From: Flavobacteriaceae bacterium
GTDB taxonomy: Bacteria > Bacteroidota > Bacteroidia > Flavobacteriales > Flavobacteriaceae
Direction of reading: 5' to 3'
Assembly (NCBI GenBank): GCA_002723295.1
Contig: PBNP01000001.1
Location: 1 to 50,285, forward strand
Length of the DNA stretch: 50,285 nt
The position numbers and the translations under genes were made by a program. The notes below the pieces were generated by a model. The model made no database searches. It worked only from the letters and a program-made list of their open reading frames with translations, and was not told the origin of the DNA. Positions 750 to 19,600 of the stretch are shown one piece after another; positions within the stretch are counted from its first letter, which is position 1, and the number at the start of each line of letters is the position of its first letter.

Positions 750-827
750 TAAGAAATGTCCTTCTATTATAGGGGTTCTCATTTCTTACAGAATAAATTG
801 TGATTATGGATACTACGTATCCATAAT
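750..827. promoter_or_regulatory. Two perfect inverted repeats in an intergenic region
   Basis: The 182 bp between the secreted-protein start (687) and tRNA-Pro (870) holds no gene. It has two perfect dyads. The first has 9-bp arms, taagaaatg at 750-758 and catttctta at 780-788, separated by 21 bases. The second has 11-bp arms, attatggatac at 803-813 and gtatccataat at 817-827, separated by only 3 bases. Neither is followed by a T-run in the direction of the secreted-protein gene, so a terminator is unlikely. They could be operators or RNA hairpins in its leader. No TAnnTTTG promoter element was found nearby. Confidence 0.4.
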
Positions 828-830
828 AAA

Positions 831-861
831 AAACCTAATCAATTGGCAATTAATTAGGTTT
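831..861 (-). terminator. Rho-independent terminator downstream of tRNA-Pro
   Basis: Arms aaacctaat (831-839) and attaggttt (853-861) form a 9-bp stem around a 13-base loop, which itself contains a short aatt/aatt pairing. On the minus strand the stem is followed by a run of T (plus-strand A at 828-833). It lies 9 bases beyond the end of tRNA-Pro. A T-run on the plus strand makes it potentially bidirectional. Confidence 0.8.
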
Positions 862-869
862 TTTTTGTG

Positions 870-944
870 TCGGGGTGGCAGGATTCGAACCTGCGACCTC
901 CTGCTCCCAAAGCAGGCGCGATGACCGGACTACGCTACACCCCG
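870..944 (-). tRNA. tRNA-Pro (anticodon TGG)
   Basis: On the minus strand a complete cloverleaf can be folded. The acceptor arms are CGGGGTG and CACCCCG with discriminator A at 870. The anticodon arm is CCTGC/GCAGG around a loop with TGG, which reads proline codons. The T-arm has a normal TTCGAAT loop and the D-loop keeps its GG pair. No CCA is encoded, as is usual in this phylum, so it is added after transcription. A consensus promoter lies immediately upstream and a terminator immediately downstream, so it is a single-gene transcription unit between oxyR and the secreted-protein gene. Confidence 0.96.
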
Positions 945-17037: not shown

Positions 17038-19470
17038 TTAATTGGATATTTTATGTAACAAAAGTTTTGTTTTGCTAGGTGTTAGGTAAGACCTTTTATA
17101 GGTTACAGACTTGATTTTCTCCTTAGAATAATACATTGGAAAATATTTATCATTTGCCCATTTTTGATAAAGATTACTATAGAAAGGACTGTCTGGATTT
17201 CCAGATTGTCCAGGACTATTGGCAGCAATAGAGGAGTCCCAATCACCAGTGTTAACTATTATTCTAAAAGTGGCTCCACTAGATTGTCTATTATTCCCAC
17301 CTGTAGATCCAGGTGTATATGAGTTCCCGCCTCTTGGTAGAGGGCCAAGATTTAATTTATTTGCAGTTTCTTTATCTGTTATTTTACCTAAAGGATGATT
17401 TATAGCAATGTGTTTGAACTTTTCTTGTCCATATTGCCAATTTATAATTTTTGGACCCAAATTTTTTTCAAGATTGTTTATTGCATTTACAAAAGATTCT
17501 TTTAAAAAATTATTTCTAGATAAAATAGGATTATTTCCAAAGAATTCTTTTTTTGGAATAACAATCCAATCAATAATTTTTTTTAGTTGAATTGAGGTAA
17601 TAAAACCCTTAGCCTTTTCAGGTACAAATTTTTCATGAGCTAGTTTTTTTATTTCATTTTCCCATGAAACATAAATTGCAGCAGGAACGGAATTAGGTTC
17701 TAATTTAAAATCCCAATCAAATAATTTTTCTTTTATATTAGAATTTTTTTGATTAAAAGATATATTATTGAGTAATGGTATTAATATCTTAGCTGGGATA
17801 GATGTAACATCAACTTGAAGATTTTTCATTATATTCATATTCAGAGGAGTCTTTTGATTAAGTACTTCATTTACTCTTTCTCCTCTATAAGGATCTGACC
17901 AAGAGAAACCTATTGCATTCCAGTATTTATAGCTTTTTGGAGTCACATTTTGATTTGCTGTAGCTATAAAACCTCTAGAGGGGTTTAATTCATTTGGTTT
18001 GTCAATTATAGGGAGGTATCCTTCCCATTCATAATCTCCATTTCCTAATACAGGTACTAATCCACTAAAATTTGATCTAATTGGAGCAATTCCAACAGCT
18101 TGCCAACCAATATTACCTTTTTTGTCAGCCCAAATCATATTTTCACCAGGAATATTACTATAGTTACATGCTTCTCTAAACTCTTCCCAATTTTTAGCTT
18201 GATTCATTCTTAGAGATGCCAGATAAGGAGATCCACCTTGTTCTAACCATGCACATCTTACAGCAAAAGCTATATTTTTTGTTTTGTTAAAATAAGTTAC
18301 AGGTCCATGATGAGTATATTTTAATTTAACTTCTTTTGGAGTGTTACCTTTAATAGGAATTATTTCCTTTATTATTTTCATTTTTCTCCATTTACCATGA
18401 AATTTATATTCTAAGGAATCATTAGGATTTATTTCATACTGATATAAATCTTCTCCATCTGTTCTAAATACTGTAAGTCCCCATGATCCAAATTCATTGT
18501 GTCCAATTGAAATACCTGGTATTTCTGGTTCGCCCCCTCCAATGACATTCCAATTAGGAGAGATTAAATGTGCCATATATCTTAAGGATGGAACTGAAAT
18601 TCTTCTATGAGGATCATTTGCCATGTATGTATTCCCATCTTCAGTTTTTTCTCCACTTACAACCCAATTGTTACTCCCGATAGATAAAGAATCATTAATT
18701 GGTTCATTTTGATAGGCTAGGGTTTGATTTTTTTTATAATCTTTTGTTATATCATTTTCTGAAAATCTTAGTGATTTTCTAAATGCATAATAAGGAGACA
18801 ATATATTTTCAAAAAGTAGCTCTTTATCAATTTTTGGATCTAATGTAATTATGGGGTCTTTTGGATGAAACCACATTAGCTCTTTTACTTTATCCTCACC
18901 TAATAAAGCGACGGCTCTACCAATTTGAAGCTCTGCACCTATGTTTCCTAATAAACCTTGATGTCTTGAAATAACAACTTCAGGAGTCCATATATTTGGT
19001 TTTATTCCTAAAATTTTGAATGGCAGGGGTAGATCATCTGGAGTCTTGTTTATTTCAGTAATATATTTATTGATGCCATCAACATATGCCCGAATTATTT
19101 TTGCTCCATCAGGATGATAATGATTTAATTCTTCCTCTATATCTCCCCTAAATTTAAATAATCGAGCTCCTATATCTCTATCTAATTCTTTTTCACCCAG
19201 AATTTCAGCTACAGTTCCAGTTGCCTGACGTCTCCATACTTCGAACTGAAAAAGCCGGTCTTTTGCAGCAAGATATCCTTGAGAAAAAAATAAATCGTAT
19301 TGATTTTGAGCATAAATATGGTTAACCCCCCATTGATCTCTTAGAACTTCAACTACATCATTAATTTCATTTATTGAAATTTCTTCATATTTAACATTAT
19401 CTTCAAATCCCTCATTACATGATAGCCCAAAGGCTATTATAAGAAAAAGATATGATTTTAAGAATTTCAT
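17038..19470 (-). CDS. Penicillin-acylase-family Ntn hydrolase, lipoprotein
   Basis: The 810-residue precursor has a lipoprotein signal ending FGLSC (Cys18), an alpha-chain region up to about residue 265, and then the N-terminal nucleophile motif SIGSNNWVVSG. Ser266 would become the new N-terminus of the beta chain after self-cleavage. Other family signatures are DPHRRISVPSLRYMAHL and GISIGHNEFGSWGLTVFRTDGEDLY. The late GGNSYTPGSTGGNNRQSSGATFR is also family-like. The enzyme hydrolyses amide bonds of acylated amines such as N-acyl homoserine lactones or beta-lactam side chains; the real substrate is unknown. Only 22 bp separate its start from the terminator of tRNA-Arg, and I found no promoter there. 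It may depend on readthrough from the tRNA transcript. Confidence 0.92.
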   Translation of the reverse strand: MKFLKSYLFLIIAFGLSCNEGFEDNVKYEEISINEINDVVEVLRDQWGVNHIYAQNQYDLFFSQGYLAAKDRLFQFEVWRRQATGTVAEILGEKELDRDIGARLFKFRGDIEEELNHYHPDGAKIIRAYVDGINKYITEINKTPDDLPLPFKILGIKPNIWTPEVVISRHQGLLGNIGAELQIGRAVALLGEDKVKELMWFHPKDPIITLDPKIDKELLFENILSPYYAFRKSLRFSENDITKDYKKNQTLAYQNEPINDSLSIGSNNWVVSGEKTEDGNTYMANDPHRRISVPSLRYMAHLISPNWNVIGGGEPEIPGISIGHNEFGSWGLTVFRTDGEDLYQYEINPNDSLEYKFHGKWRKMKIIKEIIPIKGNTPKEVKLKYTHHGPVTYFNKTKNIAFAVRCAWLEQGGSPYLASLRMNQAKNWEEFREACNYSNIPGENMIWADKKGNIGWQAVGIAPIRSNFSGLVPVLGNGDYEWEGYLPIIDKPNELNPSRGFIATANQNVTPKSYKYWNAIGFSWSDPYRGERVNEVLNQKTPLNMNIMKNLQVDVTSIPAKILIPLLNNISFNQKNSNIKEKLFDWDFKLEPNSVPAAIYVSWENEIKKLAHEKFVPEKAKGFITSIQLKKIIDWIVIPKKEFFGNNPILSRNNFLKESFVNAINNLEKNLGPKIINWQYGQEKFKHIAINHPLGKITDKETANKLNLGPLPRGGNSYTPGSTGGNNRQSSGATFRIIVNTGDWDSSIAANSPGQSGNPDSPFYSNLYQKWANDKYFPMYYSKEKIKSVTYKRSYLTPSKTKLLLHKISN

Positions 19471-19494: not shown

Positions 19495-19525
19495 AAAAGG
19501 AGAATTATTTTACGATTCTCCTTTT
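19495..19525 (-). terminator. Rho-independent terminator of tRNA-Arg
   Basis: Arms aaaaggagaat (19495-19505) and attctcctttt (19515-19525) form an 11-bp stem with a 9-base loop. On the minus strand the stem starts just after the tRNA 3' end and runs into Ts (plus A at 19493-19498). Confidence 0.82.
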
Positions 19526-19526
19526 G

Positions 19527-19600
19527 TGACCTCGGCAGGATTCAAACCTGCAACCTCTTGAGCCGTAATCAAGTGCACTATTCAGTTATGCTACGAGGCC
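19527..19600 (-). tRNA. tRNA-Arg (anticodon ACG) with A19-U56 instead of G19-C56
   Basis: On the minus strand the acceptor arms GGCCTCG and CGAGGTC pair with one G-U, and the discriminator is A at 19527. The anticodon arm CTTGA/TCAAG holds the loop TTACGGC, anticodon ACG. A34 would be deaminated to inosine to read CGU, CGC and CGA. The T-stem GCAGG/CCTGC is perfect, but the T-loop reads TTTGAAT, so position 56 is U (19544) rather than C. The D-loop reads CTGAATAG, so position 19 is A (19582) rather than G. The two changes preserve a Watson-Crick tertiary pair. A15-U48 likewise replaces G15-C48. No CCA is encoded. Confidence 0.93.

Follow-up and report, generated by a model that had tools for sequence, protein, structure and literature searches.

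The elbow pair between nucleotide 19 of the D-loop and nucleotide 56 of the T-loop is lacking in some mitochondrial tRNAs. In the portions of the literature on which we draw, G19-C56 is called invariant (PMC6337575) and the bases of the pair are called conserved (PMC4810234, PMC7912444); the ribosome makes use of the exposed face of the pair, while RNase P clamps onto the elbow (PMC4810234). The closest described departure is tRNA-Pyl, which, according to the sections of PMC6337575 cited here, loses the pair, whereas the tRNA described below keeps it in Watson-Crick form. The D- and T-loop variants selected on a tRNA-Pyl scaffold, as presented in those same sections, likewise concern co-varying D-loop and T-loop bases, but all nine variants of one selection carry C56, whereas U56 with A19 occurs naturally in our case. 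A search of open-licence papers for A19-U56, spelled with a hyphen or a space, returned no paper, nor did we find switching of the elbow pair in Bacteroidia in that literature, although specialists may know of it.

The window, by which we mean the whole 50,285-nt stretch analysed here (positions 1 to 50,285 of contig PBNP01000001.1, Flavobacteriaceae bacterium, assembly GCA_002723295.1), contains a tRNA-Arg(ACG) gene at 19527-19600 on the minus strand, comprising tRNA positions 1-73 with no encoded CCA. The gene was called by both ARAGORN and Rfam (RF00005, 58.9 bits against a cut-off of 29), and its minimum-energy fold is predicted to be the cloverleaf, which together with the score above the cut-off makes it a class I tRNA. 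It resembles canonical class I bacterial tRNA-Arg(ACG) in its cloverleaf, its RF00005 match, its anticodon ACG (19564-19566), A20, A73 and the T-loop bases U54, U55, R57 and A58. A20 (19581), which adjoins position 19 and is the main arginine identity base in bacteria, belongs with C35, A or G at 73 and the anticodon to the tRNA-Arg(ICG) identity set described in the part of PMC9976931 cited here, and the gene carries all of them. Whereas the canonical molecule has G19-C56, the D-loop AACTGAATA and the T-loop TTTGAAT give A19 at 19582 and U56 at 19544 (both minus strand), confirming the replacement proposed in the initial annotation of this DNA. We regard the molecule as a variant of an ordinary tRNA and not as a new kind of molecule. 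A comparison of gene sequences makes it very probable that this is a tRNA-Arg(ACG) of ordinary shape whose elbow is closed by a Watson-Crick A19-U56 pair, and that the identity of the pair is switchable in Bacteroidia.

Other features of the gene were only partly as first described. The remaining arms had been called perfect, but G2-U71 and U13-G22 are wobble and not Watson-Crick pairs. A15-U48, put forward as a second A-U site in the elbow, is present but nothing unusual, as it occurs in 5 of the 24 distinct tRNAs of the assembly (Arg ACG, Arg CCT, Arg TCG, Gln TTG and Leu TAG). The tRNA-Pro of the window proved canonical at 19 and 56, as stated, and the terminator noted after the tRNA-Arg(ACG) was recovered as an intrinsic terminator directly 3' of the gene (19495-19525, minus strand), composed of an 11-bp hairpin and the U run behind it (−10.9 kcal/mol, z −3.7). 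A consensus terminator scan reported none after the tRNA-Arg(ACG), its loop limit being 8 and the actual loop 9. TadA, the deaminase that forms inosine in tRNA-Arg(ACG), presumably acts on A34. For context, a penicillin amidase family gene lies downstream on the same strand (17038-19470, minus; Pfam PF01804, E 2.6e-190).

The assembly of the window is 68.8% complete and holds 24 tRNAs with a single Arg(ACG); C56 is present in all 23 others, and Arg(TCT), Arg(TCG) and Arg(CCT) are G19-C56. A relative assembled as one contig (G020; 46 tRNA matches, 34 distinct tRNAs) has U56 only in Arg(ACG), again a single gene, in agreement with the earlier expectation that there would be no second copy. DNA matches to the window tRNA were present in 36 of 40 relatives, and among the loci of the 29 best, which were typed, 28 were A/U and one was G/C (G031). 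In a sample of the order, every one of the 15 genomes from the window's family likewise has A19-U56; both results bear out the prediction that the pair recurs in the clade. Another tRNA of the same genome has an odd T-loop: L024 (C32:5941-6014, minus strand), with anticodon CAT and probably of the Ile2 type, reads ATCATGC against a TTCRANN consensus, with positions 54 and 58 both altered, whereas its counterpart in G020 reads TTCAAAT. This may be either lineage-specific or an error.

Beyond the family, the A19-U56 state is not a one-time clade marker. Patterns for the two states matched 105 of the 119 genomes in the even order sample; 41 had A19-U56 and 64 had G19-C56 only, none was mixed, and three of the 41 (G139, G055 and G064) had both states. 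In the even class sample, the class being the GTDB grouping, 261 of 295 genomes matched; the tRNA matches listed show the same two states, intermingled inside families and even inside one genus (g93). Chance matches in G335, G216, G156 and G278 were removed from this sample by eye, ARAGORN finding no tRNA at the two of those places that were fetched as loci. A pattern for A/U alone matched 28 of 148 genomes in a phylum sample, all of them among the 37 members of the class, and none of the 111 genomes of the other classes, a result restricted to the D-loop AACTGAATA that this pattern requires.

In a named collection covering 84,980 species, at least 118 contigs matched, and an arginine tRNA with A19-U56 was found in 118 of 118. 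The titles of 116 name Bacteroidota or groups within it, and include Flavobacterium, Chryseobacterium, Prevotella, Bacteroides, Parabacteroides, Alistipes, Chitinophaga and Emticicia, among others. The remaining two are an "uncultured bacterium" (L421) and a Paenibacillus metagenome-assembled genome (L437). We suspect that L437 is a mislabelled Bacteroidales contig; a Pfam search of it returned a DUF748 match alone, below the cut-off. As a side observation, L437 holds at 245-700 and 801-877 (minus strand) an A19-U56 tRNA-Arg(ACG) whose CCA is encoded, together with a frame immediately downstream of it that by eye resembles TadA.

If the pair must remain Watson-Crick, changes on one side should be missing, and this is what we observed. 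All fetched loci together gave 320 distinct tRNA bodies, of which 211 had C56 with GG, 109 had U56 with GA and none was mixed (332 bodies before end trimming, 215 G-C and 117 A-U). State had guided the choice of many of these loci, but not that of the 176 tRNAs reading codons other than CGN, which divided into 173 G-C, 3 A-U and no mixed pair. A pattern for G19/U56 matched 4 of 395 class genomes, and ARAGORN found no tRNA at any of the four. A pattern for A19/C56 matched 5 of 295 genomes and established no such tRNA: two matches were not tRNAs, two were G19-C56 tRNAs in which the GG is displaced, and the stretch of those two recurs in the fifth. Other 19-56 states could hide in the unmatched genomes (14 of 119 in the order sample and 34 of 295 in the class sample) because the patterns allow a single D-loop length and prescribe certain bases. 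Within 78 typed 46-mers, which were selected for state, columns 19 and 56 share 0.99 bit with state and the next column 0.27. This covariation, with mixed pairs absent, supports a Watson-Crick contact between 19 and 56 in the window tRNA, and likewise the suggestion of the initial annotation that the double change is compensatory and not decay. In the Bacteroidia sampled, 19-56 is thus seen solely as G-C or A-U. The anticodon loop of tRNA-Arg(ACG) also varies across Bacteroidia, mainly between two linked forms, TTACGGC and CTACGGA (positions 32 and 38), which show a loose association with the state at 19-56 (mutual information 0.16).

Trees built from 80 genomes, picked to span families holding both states, show that the pair has switched many times; since the sample is enriched in this way, the number of switches gives a minimum and should not be taken as a rate. 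The RpoB tree comprised 75 genomes (G037, with a broken gene, G292, in which the longest frame is not RpoB, and G049, G113 and G155, in which rpoB was not found, were left out) and required 24 state changes, at least 19 of them forced by well supported branches. Shuffled labels gave a mean of 24.5 changes, so that in this enriched set state is no more clustered than when shuffled. The arginyl-tRNA synthetase (ArgRS) tree of 77 genomes, 75 of them single-state (G000 and G350, with none, and G084, with a fragment, were left out), gave 23 changes, at least 14 of them forced, against a shuffled mean of 25.2.

Does this pattern reflect repeated compensation within one gene, or differential loss from two old paralogous lineages, one A/U and one G/C, or replacement of the gene by horizontal transfer? 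The second group of explanations is a serious contender, though we hold it to be somewhat improbable as the whole account. In its favour, identical 46-base cores occur in far families, a G/C core in f7, f67, f48 and f20, whose four genes have unlike acceptor stems, and an A/U core in f8, f13 and f35. Moreover, in 6 of the 10 mixed families (f5, f20, f27, f8, f13 and f48) the closest A/U gene is separated from the closest G/C gene by 8 to 10 differences at the 44 other positions, as compared to 5 differences in one family and 1 to 3 in three, so that many switches resemble an exchange of the tRNA body and not a pair of point changes; no single lineage was caught altering 19 and 56 alone. On the other hand, A/U sits on many bodies, and the 46-mers of G241 (A/U, f37) and G382 (G/C, f75) are identical except at 19 and 56 (over the full length, though, even the closest pairs of tRNAs are not alike, G241 and G382 differing at 7 of 73 positions and G241 and G357 at 9). 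In families f36, f5, f20 and f37, both states also occupy one chromosomal locus, marked by a shared upstream gene; a shared locus was not demonstrated in f27 (G153, G350) or for G356 and G302 of f36, and in f56 the shared gene is present at differing distances. Two-state genomes, finally, are few (3 of 105 in the order sample): the second tRNA-Arg(ACG) of G139, which is G19-C56, sits in an array of 15 tRNA genes, and in G234, a two-state genome of the class sample, each state lies on a contig shorter than 9 kb, the contamination of the assembly being 4%. The many differences between the closest genes and the identical cores in distant families make it likely that part of the switches came about through replacement of the tRNA body.

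Co-evolution with ArgRS could have driven the pair, as the main identity base A20 adjoins position 19. Arginine tRNAs make up 106 of the 109 distinct A/U bodies and all 106 carry A20, although most were selected by an arginine-tRNA pattern and most patterns also required A20. In 18 independent pairs, however, no ArgRS column tracks the state (among the 34 column tests that passed a prefilter, the best gave 9.3 with, 1.6 against and 7.1 with no difference), and the pair also occurs in Gly(UCC) and Ser(CGA), which leaves this explanation improbable. Relaxed selection, with a little-used or redundant tRNA drifting off consensus, we consider very unlikely. The rpoB gene of the window's own genome does use CGU, CGC or CGA for just 15 of its 65 arginine codons, but the 43 A/U genomes use them for a mean of 62%, indicating that the tRNA is in use, and A/U and G/C carriers do not differ in this share (0.625, n = 43, against 0.63, n = 30; P = 0.71). 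The gene is moreover single in its own assembly and in G020, and a one-sided change is absent from the 320 bodies. Neither GC3 of rpoB (19 independent pairs: 2.5 with, 5.0 against, 11.5 with no difference; median P = 0.51) nor CGU/CGC/CGA use in rpoB (1.3 with, 4.4 against, 13.3 with no difference) followed the state; the G292 value in both tests came from a wrong frame, and the means hardly move without it. An arms race would lead one to expect faster turnover of Arg(ACG) than of other tRNAs, which was not seen in three genome pairs, where Arg(ACG) differences were at or below the median of the tRNAs (6 against 6, 6 against 9 and 13 against 17). Because the state shows no link with GC3, codon use or ArgRS columns, and the gene evolves no faster, both decay and synthetase-driven change are disfavoured. 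An assembly or sequencing error is practically negligible as an explanation, given the identical 74-mer in four other genomes of the genus and the pair in the arginine tRNA of all 118 named contigs.

A near-neutral switch bound to Watson-Crick form fits these data best. The best reading is that 19-56 must be Watson-Crick and that in Bacteroidia its identity can switch, either through point changes or because the gene is replaced. What the ribosome, RNase P and the enzymes docking on the exposed face would need is the Watson-Crick shape of the pair and not its identity; an A-U pair, having the same overall shape as G-C, could then serve at 19-56 and fulfil the same role. A passing mismatch would be quickly lost, or the change would be made in one step through replacement of the tRNA body.

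The carriers of A-U are mainly arginine tRNAs that read CGN codons, and mostly Arg(ACG). A restriction of A-U to the anticodon ACG was considered and is ruled out, since the pair is also present in Arg(TCG), Arg(CCG), Gly(TCC) and Ser(CGA). Arg(TCG) is A/U in two f20 loci that have this gene alongside (G192 and G419) and in 12 genes among the 118 named contigs. Two Prevotellaceae carry the pair in several tRNAs at once: Leyella lascolaii (42 distinct tRNAs) in Arg(ACG), Arg(CCG), Gly(TCC) and Ser(CGA), and UBA2448 (37 tRNAs) in Arg(ACG), Arg(CCG) and Gly(TCC). The state, which switches repeatedly across the class and probably in part via replacement of the tRNA body, is thus not limited to Arg(ACG). 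One tentative explanation, to which we give slightly less than even weight, is that the elbow pair of Bacteroidia is fixed in shape and free in identity because some of the machinery that reads the elbow (RNase P, the L1 stalk, L5 or T-loop modification enzymes) no longer demands G19-C56, the flips falling chiefly in CGN-reading arginine tRNAs and, in some Prevotellaceae, in several tRNAs together. The freedom at 19-56 may differ between tRNAs, since G19-C56 is important for leucine tRNA identity in E. coli according to the part of PMC9976931 cited here.

What makes the case of interest is the class-wide, repeated and always paired switching at a site described as invariant. It amounts to a natural experiment that separates what the machinery needs, a Watson-Crick pair, from what is usually supplied, G-C, and genome pairs with both states at one locus are ready-made material for testing the elbow requirement.

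Two further observations concern tRNA bodies found along the way. A 46-base tRNA-Arg(ACG) core is common to G030, G425, G278 and G372 (L305-L308), which represent four families and at least two orders; the acceptor stems of these genes differ and they have no neighbours in common, and either horizontal movement or strong constraint is possible. The array of G139 (L312, contig C38, 2956-5250) packs its tRNA genes, which have odd bodies, into about 2.3 kb and looks phage-like.
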